This document shows positions 3,815 to 16,534 of a DNA stretch of 38,400 bases, one piece after another. The notes beneath the pieces were generated by a model that saw nothing but the letters and a program-made list of their open reading frames with translations, did not search any database and was not told the DNA's origin. The stretch covers positions 1 through 38,400 of the forward strand of contig MPMR01000035.1 of assembly GCA_002238605.1 (NCBI GenBank), in the 5' to 3' direction. The translations under genes were made by a program, and so were the position numbers. Source of the stretch: BD2-11 clade cluster bacterium bin43. GTDB lineage: Bacteria; Gemmatimonadota; Gemmatimonadetes; Longimicrobiales; Gaopeijiaceae. The number at the start of each line of letters is the position of its first letter. The stretch's first letter is position 1.

Positions 3815-6800
3815 GTGAAGCGCTTCCCACTCAAGCCGTTTCTGCTCGTCGCGACGCTCTCCGCAATTACTCCCGCCCTGACCGACACGCGGTTCGGCGC
3901 GCGGGTCTCGTCTCTCGCGGACATCATGGCGGACATCATGGACGTGGACATGGCGGACCCGGGCCCGCTCGCATCCACCCTCCACGCCCAGACACCCGTG
4001 GTCCTCGACTCGGCCTTCCTGGCCGGCTACTCGTGGCGCAACCTCGGTCCCGACCGGGGCGGCCGCTCCATCGCCGTCTCCGGCGTCAGGGGCCGGCCCG
4101 AGGAAGCCTACTTCGGCGCCACCGGCGGCGGCCTTTGGAAGACCATCGACGGCGGTGAGAACTGGAATCCCGTCACCGATTTCCAGATCAGCACGGCGTC
4201 GATCGGCGCGGTCGCGGTCAGCGAGACCGACCCCGATCTCGTCTTCATCGGCACCGGCGAGACCTGCATTCGCGGCAACATCCTGCCCGGGGACGGCGTC
4301 TACCGGAGCCGCGACGGGGGCGAAACCTGGGAGCACATCGGCTTCCGGGAATCGCACGGAATATCGAAGATCCGCATTCATCCGACCGATCCGGACATCG
4401 TCTATGTGGCGTCCTTCGGGAAGTACGGCGTGCCGAGCGAGGAGCGGGGCGTCTTCAGGAGCACCGACGGCGGAGACAGCTGGGAGCGGGTCCTCTTCCG
4501 CGACGAGCGCACCGGCGCCATCGACCTCGTGATCGACCGCAACAATCCGGAGGTGCTCTACGCGTCGCTCTGGGAGGCCTTCCGCAAGGAGTACACGATG
4601 TCGTCCGGTGGGCCGGGCAGCGGCATGTTCAAGAGCGTCGACGGCGGGAGCACGTGGACCGAGATGACCCGAAATCCGGGGATGCCGCCCGAGGGCGTCG
4701 TGGGCCGGATCGGGGTGGCGGTCTCGAGCGCGAATTCGAACCGCGTCTACGCCCTCTTCGAGCACGACGACGGGGGCCTCTTCCGCTCGGACGACGCGGG
4801 CGCCACGTGGGAGCTCATCAACGACGAGCGGCGCATCCGGCAGCGCGCCTTCTACTACACGCACGTCTTCGCGGACCACCACGACGAGGACGTGGTGTAC
4901 GTGCAGAAACACCTCGTTCTTCCGCTCCACCGACGGCGGCGCCACCTACGAGGTCATCAACAACGGCACCCACGTCGACTTCCACGACTTCTGGATCGAC
5001 CCCGACGACCCCGCGCACGTGGTGGTCGCGAACGACGGCGGCGGCGCGGTCAGCTACGCCACAGGCAGCGACTGGACCGACCAGGAATTCTCCACGGCGC
5101 AGTTCTACCACGGCGTCACGACGGCGCACATCCCCTTCCACATCTGCGGGTCGCAGCAGGACAACAGCACGCTCTGCCTGCCGTCGGACTGGAACGCGGG
5201 GCGCTTCGCGTCGGCGCTGGCCGACACCGCCAGCGACTCGGGCGCCCGGGCACCCGCGATCACCGAAGGCTCGATGGGGGTGCACTACGTGGCCGGGGGC
5301 GGAGAGCCGGGTTACATCGCGCCCGACCCGAAGGACCTCGACGTCTTCTTCTCGGGCACCAACAACGGCCGCTACATCGACAGGTTCAACCGGCGCCTGG
5401 GCACTTCGCGCGAGGTCAATCCCTACCCCTGGTTCTACTCCGGGGAGCCGGCCCTGGACATGGTCGAACGGTGGCAGTGGACCTTTCCCATAATCTTTTC
5501 GCCCATCGATCCCAACGTGCTGTACGCGTCGTCGAACCGGCTCTGGCGGACCACCGACGGCGGCACCAACTGGGACGTCCTGAGCCCCGACCTCACCCGT
5601 GCCGACCCCATGACGCTGGGGCGGTCCGGCGGCCCCATCACCGGCGACATGAACGGCCCCGAGGTCTATGCGACGATCTTCGCCGTGGGTCCGGGCAAGG
5701 TCGACATCGACGTGATCTGGACGGGGTCCGATGACGGGCTCGTGCACGTGACGCGCGACGGCGGCGAGAGCTGGGCCAACGTGACGCCCCCCGACATGCC
5801 CGACTTCGGGCGCGTGAGCCTCATCGACGCCTCGGCGTTCGACGCGGGGCGGGCATATGTCTCGGCGCGGCGCGCGCTGCTCGATGATTTTCGGCCCCAT
5901 ATATGGAAAACCGATGATTTCGGAGCGACCTGGACCCGAATCGTTGACGGAATCCGGGACGATGCCTACGTGAACTCCATCCGCGAGGACCCGAACCGGG
6001 CGGGGCTGCTGTACGCCGGCACCAACCACGGCGTCTACGTCTCCTACGATGACGGCGGTTCCTGGCAGGAGTTGAACCCGGATCTGCCCGACATCCCGAT
6101 CACAGATGTGATCCCCGAGCACGACGAGTTGGCGATGGCGAGCCACGGGCGCGGCTTCTGGATCCTCGACAACGTCGCGCCGCTGCGGCAGATCCAGCCG
6201 GGGATGACGGACCGGGACCTGGTGCTGTTCGAGCCCGCCGCCGCGTACCGCTCCGCGAACGGGGTGGTGCTGTCATGGTGGCTTGCCGATGAGCCCGGGG
6301 AGGCGATGCTGGAGATCGTGAACGCGTCGGGCGAGGTGGTGCGCACATTCGCGCCCGCGGCGGAAGGCGAGGAGCGGGATCGCTGGGCGGGTCCGGCTCT
6401 GCCGATGGACGCCGGACTGAACCGGCTGCGCTGGGACCTGCGAACGGATCCGCCCGCGACCTTCCCGGGGATGATCCTCTGGGGCGTGCGCACGATGGCC
6501 CCCGCGGTCCCACCGGGCACGTACACGGCGCGGCTCACGGCCGACGGCCGCAGCGAAACCACCGAGGTGGAGGTGCGCCGCCACCCCTGGATCACCGACG
6601 TTACCGAAGAAGACCTGGTCGCCCAGTACGAGTTCGGGGTCGAGATCCGGGACCGGGTGCACCAGGCCAACTCGGCCGTGATCGCGATCCGGAACATGAA
6701 GGCCCAGCTGGACGAGCGGCTGGAGACGTCGGACGATGAGCGGCTGGCCGGCGCGGGCGACCGCCTGCGGGAGAGCGTGTCGGCGGTGGAGGCGGACATC

Positions 6801-7076
6801 TACCAGGTGCGCAATCAGTCCAACCAGGATCCCCTCAACTTCCCCATCCGGGTGAACAACCGCCTGGCCAACCTGCTGTCAATGTCCGAGCAGGGCGACG
6901 GGCGCCCCGGGAGCGGCATGTACGCGGTCTACGAGATCATGGTGGAGCGGCTCGAGGGCCACCTGACGCGGCTCCAGGCCGTCTGGGAGGACGAGCTGGC
7001 CGAGGTCAACGCCGAGCTGAGGCGGCTGGGGATGGAGGAGATCGTGCTCGAGGAGGGGGCTGGGCTGGTGTCGTGA
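3815..7076 (+). CDS. Secreted BNR/VPS10-like repeat protein (frameshifted)
   Basis: This reads as one gene of about 1086 residues split by a frameshift. The first part (GTG at 3815, AGGAA upstream at 3802-3806) has a signal peptide (LLVATLSAITPALT) and Asp-box repeats such as KTIDGGENW, RSRDGGETW, RSTDGGDSW and KSVDGGSTW. The frame breaks at AAA 4907-4909: removing one A restores QNTSFFRSTDGGATYEV and joins the long frame ending at 7076. Ten Asp boxes are visible in all, indicating one or two beta-propellers of the sortilin/VPS10 or sialidase type, followed by a beta-sandwich-like region (GEVVRTFAP, AGLNRLRWDL) and a C-terminal helical segment. Proteins of this size and layout are often annotated glycosyl hydrolase, but no enzyme activity is proven. 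As given, translation from 3815 would run out of frame to 5734; a downstream start at 5019 would yield only the C-terminal part. Confidence 0.8.
4907..4909 (+). other. Frameshift site (one extra A)
   Basis: At GTGCAGAAACACCTCG the reading frame is lost after EDVVYVQ. With two A's instead of three, the frame reads VQNTSFFRSTDGGATYE and restores an Asp box and the rest of the protein. The change could be a consensus error in a short A run or a real single-base insertion. Confidence 0.85.
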
Positions 7077-7086
7077 GGGGGCGTGG

Positions 7087-7224
7087 ATGGAGACGGACTA
7101 CCTTCTTCGCTCGCCGAAGAACGCGCAGAGACTGAGGGAAGCCATGGCCCGGGCCGACGCGGGGAAGGGCAACGCCGTAGATCTCGAGGAACTGCGCAGG
7201 CGCCTCCGGCTGGTCGAGGAGTGA
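7087..7224 (+). CDS. YefM/Phd-like antitoxin tail, micro-ORF
   Basis: A 45-codon frame starting METDYLLRSPKNAQRLREAM and ending in a charged helix (LEELRRRLRLVEE). The start closely resembles the C-terminal half of YefM-type antitoxins, where a motif like ETxYLLRSPxNAxRL binds the YoeB/RelE-type toxin. The N-terminal DNA-binding half of YefM is missing, since the preceding gene ends at 7076, and no RelE/YoeB-like toxin follows in any frame to 7387. It may be an orphan fragment, or a stand-alone toxin-neutralising peptide. Placement right after the BNR gene suggests it could be co-transcribed. Confidence 0.5.
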   Translation: METDYLLRSPKNAQRLREAMARADAGKGNAVDLEELRRRLRLVEE

Positions 7225-7387
7225 CCCGACCTCAGCCCATCTGCCGCTCGACGAGATCAAGCATCAAGACGCCTCAGGTAAGACGGCCCTCGTTGTGACC
7301 CCGGCCAGCGGGCCACACATTAACGCTACTGAGACAGGGCGGCGCGGTGGGGGCACCAAACGCATCAGATCGGAATTGGAGGTCGTT

Positions 7388-7615
7388 ATGGCAAACTGGG
7401 ACACCTGCCCCGCGGTGGAACGCCACCCCTTTCGGGTCAGCGGCGCATGGGTATTCAAGGGGACACGCGTGCCCGTCGCCGCCCTTTTCGAGAACCTGAA
7501 GGCTGGCGCCTCGATCGACGAGTTTCTGGAATGGTTTCAGGGTGTGGAGCGATGGAAGGTTGAGACGGTTCTCGATCACGAGCTTCGCGCCTTGGGCGAG
7601 GTCGCCACTCGGTGA
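7388..7615 (+). CDS. DUF433 antitoxin
   Basis: A 75-residue DUF433 protein: HPFRVSGAWVFKGTRVPVAALFENL, then a helical segment with ASIDEFLEWFQGV. Small DUF433 proteins act as antitoxins of PIN-like toxins. The ATG at 7388 is chosen over the upstream in-frame start at 7295 because a GGAGG (7377-7381) lies seven bases before it and homology begins directly after it. It overlaps the PIN-like gene downstream by four bases (GTGA), which indicates translational coupling. Unlike the antitoxin at 2911-3606 it has no separate helix-turn-helix domain. Confidence 0.8.
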   Translation: MANWDTCPAVERHPFRVSGAWVFKGTRVPVAALFENLKAGASIDEFLEWFQGVERWKVETVLDHELRALGEVATR

Positions 7616-7929
7616 AGGTTCTCTTCGATCAGGGAACTCCGGTACCCCTCCGACGTCACCTTCCGAGGCATCGGGTAGATACAGCATTCGAACGCGGATG
7701 GGCACAGCTCCGCAACAGCGCCCTGATCGATATGGCCGAGGAGCATGGCTACCAACTCTTGATCACCACGGATCAAAGTCTGCGGCATCAACAAGATTTG
7801 GCGAAGAGAAGGTTGGCGGTGATGGTGCTCATGTCCACAGCCTGGCCCAGGATCCGGCTCCGTACGGAGGAGATCCGCAACTTGGTCGGCGAGATCGGCC
7901 CCGGCGAATTCGTGGAAGTGACGATCTGA
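7612..7929 (+). CDS. DUF5615 PIN-like toxin
   Basis: A 105-residue protein with the DUF5615 pattern: KVLFDQGTPVPLRRHL at the N-terminus (the acidic residue after LF), ERGWAQLRNSALIDMAEEHGYQLLITTDQSL in the middle with conserved Asp in TTD, and a helical end. These are compact PIN-like ribonuclease folds, found as toxins next to DUF433 antitoxins. The GTG start at 7612 overlaps the antitoxin stop. The pair 7388-7929 therefore forms a second toxin-antitoxin module of the same general class as 2474-3606 but with a shorter antitoxin. The following 217 bases to the next gene show nothing I can name. Confidence 0.8.
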   Translation: MKVLFDQGTPVPLRRHLPRHRVDTAFERGWAQLRNSALIDMAEEHGYQLLITTDQSLRHQQDLAKRRLAVMVLMSTAWPRIRLRTEEIRNLVGEIGPGEFVEVTI

Positions 7930-8146
7930 CTCGCGCGATCAATCCATGTCACCCCTCCTACTGTCTCTTCCGTGGTGGCCGAGAAAGTACCGACCAAGTC
8001 TCAACCGCCAGAGCACCAAGCGGGAAGGAGTCGTGATGTGACCATGCACGGGGAGTTGCGGAGTCGACCTCAACTGGTCTGGTCCGGCCCAGAAAGTGAC
8101 CCAGGAGGAAACACTCGTCACATCTTCGGTAGGTGATGGTTGCTCC

Positions 8147-9340
8147 ATGAAGCGCGTCATCGCAGTCGATTGGTCCGGAGCGAAGTCCGGGGCGCGATCC
8201 AGGATCTGGCTTGCCGAAGTCCGTGACGGTACCCTCATGCGGCTGGAGTCTGGGCGCGACCGTCGCGAATTAGTCACGCATCTGATCAACGATGCGAAGA
8301 AGGACCCCGATCTGGTCGTCGGCCTGGATTTCGCGTTCTCCTTCCCCGGTTGGTTTGCGGCAGAACGGGGTGCGAGGTCGGTCGAAGACGTGTGGGACCT
8401 TGCTGCCGAGCAGGGCGAGGAATGGCTGCGCGATTGCCCGCCCCCGTTCTGGGGAAGACCTAAGAAACCCAAGCCGGACTTGAACGCGCACTTTCGGGTC
8501 ACGGACGACGCGGCCAGAGCGAAGGGCTCGTTTCCCAAGAGCGTCTTCCAGATTGGCGGGGCGGGAGCAGTTGGCACGGGCTCGATCCGCGGGATGCCTC
8601 ACTTGGCGACACTTCGCGCAGCCGGCTTCTCGATCTGGCCCTTTCACGAGGTCACTGCTCCCCTGGTGATCGAGATCTATCCGCGGCTTCTAACGGGGCC
8701 GGTCAACAAGTCCGACCCTTCCGCGCGCAAGGCGTTCCTGGCGGGCGGCTTTCCTGAAATCGACGGCATGTTCGCGGGCAAGGCGGCTTCTTCGGACGAT
8801 GCCTTCGACGCCGCGATATCGGCCGTGGTCATGGCCCGCCACCTGGACGATATCTCCGCGCTTACTGCATCCCGGGACCCCACCGAACTCCTCGAGGGAG
8901 TAATCTGGTGGCCGCGCGAGATCCGTGAGGCTCCCAGCCCGCCGGTCAAGGCCGCTCCTCCGGCCGACTGCCCCTTCTGCCACCTGCCCGCGGACTCTGT
9001 CGTCGCCGAGTCGCGGCACGCCCTCGCCATTCGGGACCGATATCCCGTCAACAACGGCCACACGCTCGTAATCCCCAAGGCTCACGCTGAGACCTTCTTC
9101 GACCAAAGCGCCAAAGTCCAAGCGGACATCTGGCGTCTCGTGACCCGGGTGCGGGATGAATTGCAGTCGGAGTTTCGCCCCGACGGTTTCAATGTAGGAC
9201 TCAACGAAGGCACGGCGGCGGGCCAGACCGTCCAACATGCGCACGTGCATATCATCCCTCGCTCCCACGGGGATGTGGCCGATCCGAAAGGCGGCATCCG
9301 CTGGGTCCTGCCCGAGCGCGCCGCGTACTGGGACGAATGA
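8147..9340 (+). CDS. RNase H-like (DUF429-like) and HIT domain fusion protein
   Basis: A 397-residue two-domain protein. Residues 1 to about 265 look like a DUF429-type RNase H/RuvC-like fold: IAVDWSG (Asp8), VVGLDFAFSFPG (Asp61), IYPRLLTGPV, and SSDDAFDAAISAVVMARH (Asp217, Asp218, Asp221) give acidic residues on the expected elements. Residues about 273-397 are a HIT domain with a CPFC motif (275-278), NGHTLVIPKAH, and the histidine triad QHAHVHIIPR (His364, His366, His368). HIT proteins hydrolyse or transfer nucleoside phosphates. The ATG at 8147 is chosen because the fold begins at once; a GTG at 8096 would add 17 unrelated residues. The stop overlaps the HNH nuclease gene by four bases, so the two products very likely act together. 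The substrate is unknown; a role in nucleic-acid damage, repair or phage defence is inference from domains and neighbourhood. Confidence 0.75.
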   Translation: MKRVIAVDWSGAKSGARSRIWLAEVRDGTLMRLESGRDRRELVTHLINDAKKDPDLVVGLDFAFSFPGWFAAERGARSVEDVWDLAAEQGEEWLRDCPPPFWGRPKKPKPDLNAHFRVTDDAARAKGSFPKSVFQIGGAGAVGTGSIRGMPHLATLRAAGFSIWPFHEVTAPLVIEIYPRLLTGPVNKSDPSARKAFLAGGFPEIDGMFAGKAASSDDAFDAAISAVVMARHLDDISALTASRDPTELLEGVIWWPREIREAPSPPVKAAPPADCPFCHLPADSVVAESRHALAIRDRYPVNNGHTLVIPKAHAETFFDQSAKVQADIWRLVTRVRDELQSEFRPDGFNVGLNEGTAAGQTVQHAHVHIIPRSHGDVADPKGGIRWVLPERAAYWDE

Positions 9341-10392
9341 TCGGGCCGAGACCGCCCACGGCCGAAGAGCAGCTTGTGTTCCTTCGTTCGCTCCAACGGC
9401 TTCTGGATGAGGGCAGCTTTGTCTCCAGCTATAAGTTCGCGCTGCTGCATGCCATAGCGGACCTGTGCCTGGTCAGGGGCGATGATAGTGGCGCTGAGCT
9501 GGAACTATCAACCTCCGAGATCGCGGAGCAGTTTGTTCGGCTTTATTGGCCCCAGGTCGCGCCATTCATTGCCGGCGACGCCTCGGGGATCCTCAGCCAG
9601 AACACCGGCCGGCAGGCGGCGATCGTGCGTGAGCTGGCGGAGCGCCACAACCGATATCAGGGTTCTCTGGCCGAACTCGAGAGGAGTGCCGCGGACTGGG
9701 GCCAAGTGCGGCGCAAGGTCGAGCAGACGGTTAGGAAGATGCCACTCTGGAAGCTACAGACCGTCGGTTCCCAACGCCTGGAGTTTCTGTACGAGAATCT
9801 GGATGCCGGTGGAGTCGTTCGCCTCGAACCCGGCGTCTCGTACTGCTTTCGGGCCTTCTATCCGATGGTCACCGACATGATCGAAGGGGCATGGTCCCAC
9901 TTCGTCCAGCGGCGCAACCCACGGCTCCTGGGACAAATCGTGGATCTGCGGTCGTTCCTGTTCGGATCCCAACGCAGTTCTCTCGCCGCGTACCGTCCTT
10001 TGCTCCGGGAAGTGCAGCAGGGCCGATGCTTCTACTGCGAACGCAACATCAAGTCACGGGCGGACGTCGACCACTTCATCCCATGGAGGCTGTACGCGCT
10101 GGACCTCGGCCACAACTTCGTCCTTGCCCACCAGGGATGTAACTCGAGCAAGTCGGACCTGCTCGCCGCGGAGGAACACCTCGAACGATGGACCGAGCGG
10201 AATCGTACCCGCCGGGACGAACTGCAGCATGGCTTCGATGAACTGAAGGTCCTGCACGATTGGCCCGCGACTCATCAGATAGCACGCTGGGCCTACGGTC
10301 AGGCCCACCAGTCGGGGCGACAGGTATGGGTTCAGACGAAGGCACTGAGGCCGCTATCGGACGACTGGCGAAGGATCTTGTCCGCGGCATGA
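9337..10392 (+). CDS. HNH endonuclease
   Basis: A 351-residue protein with a C-terminal HNH nuclease module: CFYCERNI (Cys231, Cys234), DVDHFIPW (Asp245, His246), Asn260, and HQGCNSSKSD (His265, Cys268, Asn269), which give a zinc-supported beta-beta-alpha-metal site. The first 200 residues are helical, with a conserved-looking FVSSYKFALLHAIADL segment, and may bind the partner or DNA. The start ATG overlaps the stop of the RNase H-like-HIT gene (ATGA), showing translational coupling. It ends 12 bases before the convergent Fic gene. The nuclease assignment is secure; target and trigger are unknown. Confidence 0.85.
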   Translation: MIGPRPPTAEEQLVFLRSLQRLLDEGSFVSSYKFALLHAIADLCLVRGDDSGAELELSTSEIAEQFVRLYWPQVAPFIAGDASGILSQNTGRQAAIVRELAERHNRYQGSLAELERSAADWGQVRRKVEQTVRKMPLWKLQTVGSQRLEFLYENLDAGGVVRLEPGVSYCFRAFYPMVTDMIEGAWSHFVQRRNPRLLGQIVDLRSFLFGSQRSSLAAYRPLLREVQQGRCFYCERNIKSRADVDHFIPWRLYALDLGHNFVLAHQGCNSSKSDLLAAEEHLERWTERNRTRRDELQHGFDELKVLHDWPATHQIARWAYGQAHQSGRQVWVQTKALRPLSDDWRRILSAA

Positions 10393-10403
10393 TCGGCTGA
10401 TTC

Positions 10404-11573
10404 CTACCCGCGTGGATCCTCCGTCCCCTCCCGCAGAACGGCCAGATACCGCTCATAGGTGAAGATCTTGCCACGCTGGCGGCCCGTGACTTCGCGCACG
10501 ATGTCCAGTTCTTCGAGAAGCCGGAGCACGGCGGCGACGGTCGGCGCGGACAGGCCGGTTCGCCGCGCGAGATGGGCGATGCCGCCGACCGGCCGTTCGA
10601 CGAGCGACTGGTGCACCCGCAGCGCCGAACCCGCGCGTCTTCCCTGGCGTCCGATCCGCAATCTGTCTTCCCGGATCGTTTTGCTCGCAATCCGAGCCGT
10701 CGCGAAGGCTCCTTCCGCTACCTCGCGCACGCCCTCCAGGAAGAACCGCAACCAGGCTTCCCAGTCTCCGGTGTGCCGGATGTCGTTGAGGAGCTGGTAA
10801 TACGTGCTTCGATGGCTCTTGAAGTACAGGCTGAGATACAGAAGTGGCTCCCGGAGAAGGCCGGCGTCACACAGCATCAGAGTGATCAACAATCGTCCCA
10901 GCCGGCCGTTGCCATCGAGAAAAGGGTGGATGGTCTCGAACTGCACATGCGCCAGTCCGGCCTTGACGAGAACGGGAAGTCCGTCGTCCGTGGCGTTGAT
11001 GAAGCGCTCCAGGTCAGCCATGCATTCCTGGACATGGTTGGGTGGTGGTGGCACGAAGGCCGCGTTGCCGGGACGTGAGCCGCCGATCCAGTTCTGAGAT
11101 CGCCGGAACTCGCCCGGCATCATCGCCGCCCCGCGGCCGCTCGCCAGCAACCTGGCGTGCATCTCCCGCATGAGGCGATTGGCCAACGGAAAGCCACCCC
11201 GCAGGCGCTCGACGCCGTGATTCAGGGCCGCCACGGCGTTCGACGTTTCCAGCACATCGCTGACGGGGGCACCGGGCGCACCGCCCGCCTCGTGGAGCAT
11301 CAGGTCGGCCAGCGAAGACTGGGTGCCCTCGATCTGAGAAGACAACACGGCTTCCTTTCGCACATAGCCGTACACAAAGAGGGCTGCATCCGGCAGCAAC
11401 TCCGTGACCGCATCGAGCCGTCCGAGGGCGGTCGTGGCCGCTTCGAGCGGACGCCGGAGACCCTCGCGGAAATCGACTTCCGGGACAGGCGGGAGAGGCC
11501 GGGGTACGAAGGCCCGCACGGTCTCTCCGCCACCGACGGTCACTTCGTAAGTGCCTGTGGATTCGCGGCGCAT
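10404..11573 (-). CDS. Fic family protein (AMP transferase type)
   Basis: A 389-residue Fic protein. The active-site motif HPFLDGNGRLGR is at residues 216-227, the flap/target segment GEFRRSQNWIGG at 154-165, and the N-terminal inhibitory helix SSQIEG at 78-83, where the Glu blocks ATP gamma-phosphate binding (autoinhibited class II Fic). The C-terminus (about 334-382) carries a winged helix (LARRTGLSAPTVAAVLRLLEEL). All catalytic residues are present, so it should transfer AMP (or a related group) to a protein hydroxyl. The ATG at 11573 places the inhibitory helix at the usual distance. It is convergent with the HNH gene and may belong to the same accessory block. Its target is unknown. Confidence 0.9.
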   Translation of the reverse strand: MRRESTGTYEVTVGGGETVRAFVPRPLPPVPEVDFREGLRRPLEAATTALGRLDAVTELLPDAALFVYGYVRKEAVLSSQIEGTQSSLADLMLHEAGGAPGAPVSDVLETSNAVAALNHGVERLRGGFPLANRLMREMHARLLASGRGAAMMPGEFRRSQNWIGGSRPGNAAFVPPPPNHVQECMADLERFINATDDGLPVLVKAGLAHVQFETIHPFLDGNGRLGRLLITLMLCDAGLLREPLLYLSLYFKSHRSTYYQLLNDIRHTGDWEAWLRFFLEGVREVAEGAFATARIASKTIREDRLRIGRQGRRAGSALRVHQSLVERPVGGIAHLARRTGLSAPTVAAVLRLLEELDIVREVTGRQRGKIFTYERYLAVLREGTEDPRG

Positions 11574-11741
11574 CTGGTATGGGAATCGCAGCCAGCGAGT
11601 GCTCTCCGCCGTCTGTGCGGCAGGGACATCGCTGGACGTGGAACCGAAGGGTGAATCCCAAGATGGCGCCGCTCTAAGAAAGATTCAAGGCGTTCGATTT
11701 CGTTAGTGTCTTCGTTGGAAAGGAAATCTTCCTTACGCCGC

Positions 11742-13340
11742 TCACCCACTACCATCCTGCGCCAGCGACTTGAGCAGCCCGGCGATCATGAACAGCAGTA
11801 CGACGCTCACGGGCAGGGCGGCGGCTATGGCTGCCGTCTGCAGGGCCTGGAGGCCGTCGGCGAGCAGGAGCACGGCGGCCACCAGTCCCACGCCGAGCCC
11901 CCAGACGATGCGGAAACGGCGCGGGGGATGAGCGTCGCCCATGCTCAGGAAGGTGGTGATGACCAGGGTGCCGGAGTCCGAAGAAGTGACGAACCAGGTC
12001 GCAAGCAGAAGGGTGGCCATGGCGGACATGGCCCAGGTGAGCCAGCCGAGGTCGCTCATCCGGCCGATGGTCGCGTAGAGCGCGGCTTCGTAGTTCGCGG
12101 CCCGCACCAGTTCCATGATCCCGGCGGTTCCGACGCCGCCCGCGGCGTTGAGTTCCAGGTGGATGGCGTTGCCGCCGAAAACCCCGAACCACAGCAGCAC
12201 CAGGCCGGTCGGGACGAACATCACGCCCAGGATGAACTCGCGCACCGTGCGCCCGCGGGAGATGCGGGCGATGAACGTGCCGACGAAGGGGGCCCACGAG
12301 ATCCACCATCCCCAGTAGAAGATCGTCCAGGCGTTCTGCCAGGCGGCTTCCCCCGGACCATCGGCAATCCAGAACGACATGGGCGCCAGGTGCCGCAGGT
12401 AGGAGCCCAGGGAGGTGGCAACGAATCCGGCGAGCCATTCGAAAGGGCCCAGGAACAGAAAGATGCCCAGCAGGACAACGCTCAGGACGATGTTCCACTC
12501 GGACAGGATGCGGATGCCTCGCCTCACGCCGGACACGGCCGACAGTGTGGCCGCCAGCGAGATGGCGGCGATGAGCGCGACCTGCGTGACGACACCCGGA
12601 TCGGCGCCGAGCAGGACGTTCAGCCCGGTCGCCATCTGGCTTGCTCCGAGACCCAGGGAGGTGGCGATGCCGAAGACCCCGCCGAACACCGCCAGAAGGT
12701 CCACCAGGTCACCGATCGGGCCGTAGATCCGGTCGCCGATGAGCGGGTACAGGGCTGAGCGCAGCGTCAGCGGCAGTTTCCTGCGAAACCCGAAATAGGC
12801 CAGGCACAGCCCGACGACGACGTACACGGACCATCCGTGTATTCCCCAATGGAAGTAGGTGATGCGCATGGCGTGCGCGGCGCGCTGCTCGTCCAGCAAC
12901 ACGGCGCCCGCCAGGTCGGCGACCGGGTTGTTGGGGTAACCCGCGGCCTGGCTGTTGTCGAAATAGAAGAGCGGTTCGGCAATGGAGAAGAACAGCAGCC
13001 CGATCCCGACGCCTGCCGAGAACAGCATGGCGATCCAGGAGGACGTTCTGAACTCGGGTTCGGAAGCGTCGTCGCCGAGCCGGATCCTGCCGAATCGGCT
13101 GCACACCAGGAACAGGCAGGTGAGCACGGCGGCGCAGACGGTCAGGATGTAGAACCAGTCGAGCGTGCCCTCGATCCAGTCGCGGATGCGGCCGAAAACG
13201 GCGCCGGCGGCGTCCACGTCCCGGACCGTGGCGAGGACGAAGATCAGGACGACGCCCTTGGCGGCCAGCGCCATCGCGGGATTCAGCCCCTTCCACAGCC
13301 CGGCACGCGCCGTGGCTCGCCGATGTCGCCCGCTGCTCAT
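11742..13340 (-). CDS. BCCT family osmolyte transporter
   Basis: A 532-residue protein of the betaine/carnitine/choline transporter family, with about 12 hydrophobic segments. Family marks include SAGVGIGLLFFSIAEPL, YFHWGIHGWSVY, WWISWAPFVGTFIARISRG and WFVTSSDSGTLV. Such carriers import quaternary ammonium compounds, usually with Na+ or H+, for osmotic protection or as nutrients. The frame is open to 13514, but I choose the ATG at 13340 because the upstream residues are Arg/Ser-rich and unlike the family. The cytoplasmic N-terminus is short, and the long charged C-terminal regulatory tail of BetP-like sensors is absent. The roughly 170 bases before Fic and before the divergent peptidase gene show no clear promoter to me. 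Confidence 0.9.
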   Translation of the reverse strand: MSSGRHRRATARAGLWKGLNPAMALAAKGVVLIFVLATVRDVDAAGAVFGRIRDWIEGTLDWFYILTVCAAVLTCLFLVCSRFGRIRLGDDASEPEFRTSSWIAMLFSAGVGIGLLFFSIAEPLFYFDNSQAAGYPNNPVADLAGAVLLDEQRAAHAMRITYFHWGIHGWSVYVVVGLCLAYFGFRRKLPLTLRSALYPLIGDRIYGPIGDLVDLLAVFGGVFGIATSLGLGASQMATGLNVLLGADPGVVTQVALIAAISLAATLSAVSGVRRGIRILSEWNIVLSVVLLGIFLFLGPFEWLAGFVATSLGSYLRHLAPMSFWIADGPGEAAWQNAWTIFYWGWWISWAPFVGTFIARISRGRTVREFILGVMFVPTGLVLLWFGVFGGNAIHLELNAAGGVGTAGIMELVRAANYEAALYATIGRMSDLGWLTWAMSAMATLLLATWFVTSSDSGTLVITTFLSMGDAHPPRRFRIVWGLGVGLVAAVLLLADGLQALQTAAIAAALPVSVVLLFMIAGLLKSLAQDGSG

Positions 13341-13514
13341 CGGTCGATGGCCGATTTGCTTGCCACGGGAAGATCGGCACGCTGCGCGATATGGGGCTCG
13401 GGCAAGCTGTTTCCTGTGCGGGGATGTGGAACGGTTGGTGGAACGGGGATCCCGGACCATAGGTTGGGGATTCCTGGCGCAACAGACCCGATCATCGAAA
13501 CGGCGCGGTGACAC

Positions 13515-15904: not shown

Positions 15905-15931
15905 GGCTCTTGCCTGCGGGCTAAAGAGCCA
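15904..15931 (-). promoter_or_regulatory. Stem-loop at the tdk start codon
   Basis: On the minus strand TGGCTCTT pairs exactly with AAGAGCCA, and inside it GCC pairs with GGC across a CGCA loop with two unpaired bases (TA). The left arm lies in the last codons of the vapC-like gene and the right arm ends at the A of the tdk ATG. No T run follows, so it looks less like a terminator than like an element that could mask the tdk ribosome-binding region. Confidence 0.45.
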
Positions 15932-16295
15932 GGGGCACGAGCGATGACTTGCGAATCACCGCGTCCCGCGTGACGAGAGGGATCCCGTGGACGACGCTGG
16001 TCGCAGCGATGATTTGGTCGGCCGGATCGCCCCTGAAATCCAGTCGGGTTGAAGCGCGAGCCACCGCCAGATCGATCGGCCACGAGCGGATACGACTCAG
16101 GGTTCGGACCACGTGCCGGTCGCCGAGGTCCACTTCGACACGGCCCAGTTGGACGAGCTTCGCGATCTCCCAGAAGACGATGGAGGAGACCGACCACTGC
16201 GTGCCGGCGAGCAATTGCTGCTCGCTGCCGGCCAGTGCTCCGCGCAGGGCGTAGATAAGGATGTGCGTGTCGAGGTTCAGCACTCCGCGTCCCAC
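15921..16295 (-). CDS. PIN domain toxin, VapC type
   Basis: A 124-residue PIN domain: [12 protein letters not shown] (first Asp), [17 protein letters not shown] (conserved Glu), and the end motif [22 protein letters not shown] with further acidic residues. VapC proteins are Mg-dependent ribonucleases, often cutting initiator tRNA or rRNA. The GTG at 16295 overlaps the antitoxin gene by 19 bases; a second GTG at 16283 would start MLNLDTH and overlap by seven, and is equally likely. The antitoxin lies directly upstream, and the thymidine kinase gene follows at 17 bases. Confidence 0.88.
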
Positions 16296-16534
16296 CGAAT
16301 TCCCGTGGACAGGATATCCCCCCTGATCTCGAGCTTGTCCCGCAGACTGCCGATCAGGCTGGCCGAGTCCTGCTCAAAGGGCAACACCCGCGCAACCGGT
16401 TTGCCCCGCTTGGTGATCACCAGGCCGTCAGGACCGAGCCGATCCAGCAACGAGAGGCACTGCTCCTTGAATCGCGCCGCGCCGATCCTCCGGGGTGGTG
16501 CCGTGCTCCCCTCCGCATTGGGCTGTGTCTTCAT
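16277..16534 (-). CDS. Phd/YefM-type antitoxin
   Basis: An 85-residue antitoxin. The pattern IGAARFKEQCLSLLDRL, then GLVITKRGKPVARVLPFE, is that of Phd/YefM DNA-binding domains; the C-terminal part (IGSLRDKLEIRGDIL) would wrap the toxin. A strong Shine-Dalgarno (GGGAGG on the minus strand, about 16540-16545) stands five bases before the ATG at 16534. It overlaps the PIN toxin gene, forming a normal antitoxin-first operon. An inverted repeat at 16555-16592 upstream is a fitting autoregulatory operator. Confidence 0.85.
   Translation of the reverse strand: MKTQPNAEGSTAPPRRIGAARFKEQCLSLLDRLGPDGLVITKRGKPVARVLPFEQDSASLIGSLRDKLEIRGDILSTGIRWDAEC

Follow-up and report, generated by a model that had tools for sequence, protein, structure and literature searches.

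Whether a nucleotide-processing enzyme and a DNA nuclease encoded by overlapping genes form a functional unit, and of what kind, is the question raised by one locus in a 38,400-nucleotide stretch of DNA (the window) from BD2-11 clade cluster bacterium bin43 (Gemmatimonadota), where a protein with an RNase H-like and a HIT domain is followed directly by an HNH nuclease. HIT enzymes are ancient dinucleotide hydrolases whose roles in bacteria are poorly understood. A first-pass annotation of the letters alone had taken the two genes, set among two toxin-antitoxin (TA) modules and a Fic gene, for a candidate defence system that might work through nucleotide-signal control or as a damage-triggered nuclease. 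The comparisons described here revealed that the HIT-HNH pair recurs across many phyla inside anti-virus gene clusters and is thus probably an undescribed bacterial immune module, of which the RNase H-like domain is a lineage-specific addition.

Architecture of the fusion protein

The open reading frames, the ATG start at 8147, the stop codons and the four-base overlap claimed by the first-pass annotation were confirmed from the sequence (Table 1), and the residues it had named were all found as given, namely Asp8, Asp61, Asp217/218/221, and His364/366/368 of the fusion protein and His246 of the HNH protein.

Table 1. Features of the HIT-HNH locus and its surroundings, in window coordinates
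Feature	Position	Strand	Basis
Conserved hot-spot boundary gene	5019-7076
Variable hot spot holding the module	7082..11753		DNA comparison with 6 congeners
DUF433 antitoxin-like and DUF5615-like toxin genes	7295..7929	+	PF04255 7.5e-11; PF18480 9e-3, below cut-off
RNase H/DUF429-like + HIT fusion gene	8147-9340	+	397 aa, ATG start 8147
Predicted RNase H-fold, DUF429-like domain (residues 1-262)	8147..8932	+	alignment, hhalign, predicted topology
HIT domain (residues 269-397), triad H364/H366/H368	8951..9337	+	PF01230, Fhit fold, A2 alignment (33 relatives)
ATGA overlap, HIT stop/HNH start	9337..9340	+	sequence; same overlap in many distant loci
HNH gene, intact, 351 aa	9337-10392	+
HNH protein N-terminal, mostly helical domain (residues 1-213)	9337..9975	+	A1 and A5 alignments; AF2
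HNH (ββα-metal) nuclease domain (residues 214-328)	9976..10320	+	PF01844; Cas9 HNH fold match
SoFic-type Fic gene	10404..11573	-	PADLOC SoFic 4.8e-113
BCCT transporter gene, other hot-spot boundary	11742-13514
Small antitoxin-like ORF (upstream) and PIN-domain toxin, outside hot spot	15921-16534	-

Residues 1-262 of the fusion gave no Pfam match, the gathering threshold of PF04250 (DUF429) not being reached, and a search of the window's own genome with PF04250 returned none. In a structure search with the whole fusion model, the list was filled by HIT matches that masked the RNase H-like part, and profile comparison was therefore used instead. The profile of the N-terminal domain matched a DUF429 profile, constructed with sequences of congeners and further relatives, with a probability of 95.3% over 145 columns (hhalign), as compared with 0.7% and 0.1% for the HIT and HNH control profiles, respectively. 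Asp61 and Asp218/Asp221 are aligned with the DUF429 profile, and Asp8, on strand 1, is conserved among the relatives and lies beyond the aligned range. An alignment of 27 relatives (A3) revealed Asp8, Asp61, Glu176, and Asp221 to be invariant, Glu176 being an addition to the acidic residues listed previously. The predicted model has a β-β-β-α-β order, consistent with the RNase H fold. The RNase H/DUF429-like character first proposed from the acidic pattern is thus upheld by profile similarity and by the conserved acidic residues of strands 1 and 4.

The HIT domain was identified by a Pfam match to PF01230 (E = 3e-22, residues 283-374 of the fusion), and its predicted structure superposes on Fhit with a Z score of 16.6 over 103 residues and a deviation of 1.5 Å. 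The top PDB sequence matches are Bacillus HIT proteins, with a mycobacterial Ap4A phosphorylase near the top. The catalytic residues are intact, with the triad and Gln360 nearly invariant among the 33 aligned relatives (A2); the HxHxHxx triad, the HIT fold and the upstream glutamine together place the domain in the Fhit/Ap4A-hydrolase branch of the HIT superfamily. A C-terminal signature, GDxxDPRGGxRW..P..A.YW, is conserved within the subfamily.

Architecture of the HNH protein

The HNH protein was modelled with high confidence (AF2, mean pLDDT 93). Pfam recognized PF01844 at residues 231-274 (E = 2e-4), and residues 214-328 of the model match Cas9 HNH domains with a Z score of 7.4 over 97 residues at 3.3 Å. 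The domain carries Asp245-His246, Asn260, Lys272, and the zinc-knuckle cysteines, and the catalytic positions are conserved in an alignment of 70 relatives, such that the β-β-α-metal fold, the DH and HN motifs, and the zinc knuckle of an HNH nuclease are all present. Residues 1-213 are also strongly conserved, with the motifs (S/T)YKFAL, LYW, and QNTG; this region had no separate fold match, searches of PDB and viral folds returning HNH-core matches, and it is proposed to be a sensor or regulatory part.

Among close relatives, the zinc cysteine at residue 231 is replaced in the HNH proteins of L003/L041 (C231R), and frameshifts are found in the HIT gene of L008/L040 and in the HNH genes of L010/L075 and L011/L088. 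These changes may reflect assembly error, phase variation, or decay.

Conservation of the pair and variation of its partner

The expectation that the two genes would be neighbours elsewhere was borne out. The HIT-HNH pair is kept in all 12 of the full-length relatives first found, and an HNH alignment scan of 84,980 species genomes returned 299 HNH relatives. For 66 of the best 80 of the 299, the gene immediately preceding HNH encodes HIT (64 counted automatically, plus L042 and L075, where HIT is hidden by an overlap or frameshift). Overlap or near-contact of the two genes, often as a four-base ATGA, is common to distant loci, and this arrangement would permit translational coupling. The best 80 are labelled under more than 10 phyla, comprising Gemmatimonadota, Planctomycetota, Verrucomicrobiota, Lentisphaerota, Acidobacteria, Proteobacteria, Geobacter relatives, Chloroflexi, Myxococcales, Spirochaetes, Latescibacterota, Ignavibacteriales, and others, although many are metagenome bins for which individual assignments may be wrong. 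Within this range the distribution is patchy: only a small fraction of 298 sampled genomes of the phylum has a full-length relative of the fusion, and the HNH family was detected at 1e-20 in only 3 of 398 proteobacterial genomes.

Comparison of the window with four relatives gave dN/dS values of 0.16-0.40 for the RNase H-like domain, 0.19-0.25 for HIT, and 0.08-0.15 for HNH. Pairwise distances of HIT and HNH show a weak correlation that is nonetheless significant (r = 0.32, 0 of 5000 permutations). Judged by these sequence comparisons, both genes are under purifying selection and the pair is not a chance one.

The position upstream of HNH is not always occupied by HIT. Among the best 80 of the 299 relatives, it holds a class I SAM methyltransferase in four, a nucleotidyltransferase in one, a NADAR protein in one (PF08719, 3e-54; L051 2920-3501, from a Planctomycetaceae bin), and a small protein in one (L060), the remainder of the 80 having no recognized partner or a contig edge. 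The small L060 protein, which had no Pfam or NCBIfam match, is presumably a relative of MazG-type NTP pyrophosphatases, and the partner methyltransferases resemble classes that act on small molecules or proteins and not DNA methylases. HNH relatives with no recognizable upstream partner (L046, L077, L081, L090, and L100) include a close one, 75% identical (L046), and HIT is thus not strictly required.

Small SAM methyltransferases were observed paired with or near HNH at L034, L035, L038, L039, L115, L116, L119, L120, L122, L156, and L157. These loci are of Acinetobacter and Pseudoalteromonas type, and L038 adjoins type I-Fv CRISPR genes. A scan of viral contigs returned three relatives, two with a methyltransferase directly upstream; with these three as the only viral-contig relatives, and with phage HIT matches confined to HIT, a viral origin was rejected.

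The RNase H-HIT fusion was seen solely in Gemmatimonadota-type genomes, HIT standing alone elsewhere, and at locus L050 a separate RNase H-like gene lies upstream of HIT. The first-pass annotation had treated the fusion and HNH as the unit; the pairing stands, but on these gene arrangements the core is HIT plus HNH and the fusion an elaboration specific to Gemmatimonadota. In two other loci, L019 (904-2367, minus strand) and L020 (1468-2889, plus strand), the RNase H/DUF429-like domain recurs, joined there to a SpoT/RelA-type HD hydrolase domain (PF13328, 2e-17; TIGR00691, 6e-22 for L020), another nucleotide-hydrolase fusion.

The hot spot and its neighbouring genes

In the window the module occupies a variable hot spot together with TA and Fic genes. 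Pfam and PADLOC matches agree with the two TA modules and the Fic gene that had been reported as its setting. Some congeners carry the module in other company. The hot spot of G045 holds the module alone and that of G161 a DUF433-type TA pair and the module, with no adjoining Fic gene, indicating that the TA and Fic genes vary as cargo independently of it; they were accordingly rejected as parts of the system. Other contents were found in G085 (a PhdYefM/YoeB pair and Fic) and G098 (a macro-domain protein and other genes), and in G301 and G279 the interval is ∼0.8 kb and lacks the module. The HNH family is present in 4 of 11 congeners, and the hot spot is empty in some others. In G085 (L124, 1035-2436), a stretch that matches the final 48 bases of HNH (window 10345-10392) adjoins Fic and is probably a scar left by loss or replacement of the module. 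The conserved boundary gene belongs to a large paralogous family, matched 26 times in the genome of the window and 22-29 times in most congeners. An Rfam search of the window found nothing.

Defence genes around the pair

Enrichment near defence genes, which the first-pass annotation had made a test of its proposal, was found across genomes. In 20 genomes, the 140 proteins encoded no more than 6 kb from the pair gave matches to 95 PADLOC models at 1e-15, and 140 control proteins, called likewise away from the pair in 14 of the same genomes, matched 4, these being counts of models rather than proteins, to which a single operon can contribute many. Among the flank matches are HerA accompanied by SIR2, QatA/B/D, a type II methylase, and a number of PDC candidates. 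A set of ten neighbours taken from other loci produced five PADLOC matches, to SspC, ZorA, and three HNH restriction-type genes, the last three having been chosen knowingly and so subject to post hoc bias. In 2 of 20 genomes an HsdS gene is found no more than 15 kb from the pair, where its density would predict ∼0.11 (Poisson ∼0.006), and HNH_2 gave 4 matches within 15 kb against ∼0.07 expected, an enrichment that is partly post hoc because it was in these loci that HNH_2 first drew attention. A PLD-SF2-DUF3427 helicase is encoded near the HNH gene in seven loci, downstream in several, and that of L074 matches the PADLOC type IV restriction enzyme at 2.6e-236. The location of the pair in defence islands is therefore well supported.

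Two further arrangements were observed downstream of HNH. A protein of ∼315 aa, with no Pfam match, is encoded between HNH and the PLD-helicase-DUF3427 gene in L060 (11063-12007) and L074 (11119-12072), and in L055 an SspC/BrxC-like ORF (7261-9672; 1.8e-140) begins four bases past the end of the HNH ORF.

A proposed mode of action and its alternatives

The reading we favour, to which we would give slightly less than an even chance, is that the two genes make up a compact immune module, spread by horizontal transfer, with HIT processing a nucleotidyl ligand or mark that controls the HNH DNase. The HNH protein would be the effector, its N-terminal 210 residues sensing a ligand or a DNA or protein cue, and HIT, as a member of the Fhit/Ap4A-hydrolase branch, would split a nucleotidyl bond of the ligand or mark that exerts control, most likely an adenine-nucleotide compound. 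Such cleavage would set or reset the effector. In Gemmatimonadota, the DUF429-like domain perhaps brings HIT to nucleic acid or releases the nucleotide from it. That other enzymes of nucleotide or small-group chemistry can take the place of HIT beside the same HNH family supports a role for the partner as a controller and not as a structural subunit. Recurrent adjacency, catalytic residues kept intact in both enzymes, purifying selection, a patchy occurrence, and a place in defence islands speak for this reading; the HNH relatives lacking a recognizable partner, the weak distance correlation, and the frameshifts or lost cysteine of some close relatives speak against it.

These loci could instead represent modification-dependent (type IV-like) restriction, with the HNH N-terminal domain reading modified phage DNA and the partner adding, removing, or protecting against a nucleotide-type mark. 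The presence, at several loci, of a type IV methyl-directed restriction helicase within the gene cluster, the adjoining HNH_2 restriction-type proteins, and the NADAR partner, from a family in which some members act on ADP-ribosylated guanine, all point in this direction. The partner methyltransferases, however, are not of DNA methylase classes, HIT has to our knowledge no role in DNA modification beyond removal of AMP from 5′ ends, and the N-terminal domain matched no known modified-base reader in searches that returned HNH-core matches; we consider such restriction unlikely. Processing of DNA ends or abortive ligations, in which an aprataxin-like HIT would strip 5′-AMP from breaks that the nuclease makes or leaves while the RNase H-like domain holds nucleic acid, is permitted by HIT chemistry and would accommodate the fusion, in Gemmatimonadota, of HIT to a predicted RNase H fold with a conserved acidic site. 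Yet the closest solved HIT structures are of Fhit/Ap4A type, with aprataxin absent among the matches listed, most HIT partners have no DNA-binding extension, and a patchy distribution in defence islands is ill-suited to housekeeping repair; we regard end processing as distinctly improbable.

Two short coupled genes, with the partner upstream where present and replaceable by other enzymes, also resemble a toxin-antitoxin pair, in which HNH would be a DNase toxin neutralized by HIT or its replacement. Since HNH is also found without HIT, as in the 75% identical L046, a strict antitoxin role is disfavoured, and a toxin-antitoxin function appears highly improbable. That HIT, a common type of protein, is an ordinary nucleotide housekeeping gene travelling by chance with a nuclease is scarcely credible given the adjacency in 66 of the best 80 of 299 loci, commonly with an overlap, and the conserved C-terminal HIT signature of the subfamily.

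Control of HNH by HIT, the preferred reading, can be extended to a new class of module, comprising an HNH effector, a new N-terminal sensor, an interchangeable partner for nucleotide chemistry, and an undescribed infection-linked nucleotide signal, a proposition we consider possible but doubtful. The gain of an RNase H-like domain by the signal enzyme in Gemmatimonadota suggests that the signal nucleotide may be released from nucleic acid. If the module is as proposed, its occurrence in the defence islands of many phyla would assign HIT enzymes a role in immunity and make it possible to test directly whether infection is signalled by adenine-nucleotide alarmones or related compounds. The swapping of HIT, methyltransferase, and NADAR partners around one nuclease would then be a natural experiment on effector control.

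Comparison with known systems

PADLOC models reach only the core of the HNH family and, for the HIT protein, only the generic fold. Mainly open-access literature yielded no description of the HIT-HNH pair, although an unseen report is possible, and for HIT with defence only the PADLOC paper (PMC8565338) was relevant.

The N-terminal domain of the fusion shares with DUF429 (PF04250, RNase H-like clade D) a predicted RNase H fold and the motifs GVD, GID.PFG.P, E(V/I)YP, and SDD..DA; it differs in being fused to HIT and in falling below the Pfam threshold. DUF429 is an established RNase H-like family with some members fused to NUDIX or RelA/SpoT domains, and the portions of that report consulted make no mention of HIT among the DUF429 fusions (PMC3985635). 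The HNH nucleases PtuB of Septu/retron systems and PDC-M01B have the same core, CxxC..DH..HN..C..N..K. The match, however, extends only over residues ∼205-299, and PtuB models do not cover the 210-residue N-terminal domain; with a profile match to the HNH core only and no PtuA ATPase adjacent in the window, membership of Septu was rejected.

In Thoeris type II, as here, a HIT-domain protein (ThsC; PADLOC PDLC00441) is encoded beside an immune effector, and ThsC has been hypothesized to switch off signalling by a nucleotide second messenger (PMC8565338). The ThsC profile matched HIT at 1e-11 to 3e-14, over the generic HIT core only. In contrast to Thoeris, the partner of HIT is a predicted HNH DNase with no TIR or other Thoeris genes beside it; the window neighbours are TA genes and Fic, with no thsA or thsB (TIR), and no recurrent TIR neighbour was found among the annotated neighbour families of the best 80 of the 299 loci. 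Membership of Thoeris type II was therefore rejected. The closest likeness of the HIT domain, in fold, triad, and glutamine, is to the Fhit/bacterial Ap4A hydrolase branch, from which it is set apart by its own C-terminal signature (GDxxDPRGGxRW...YW), suggestive of a particular substrate or partner.
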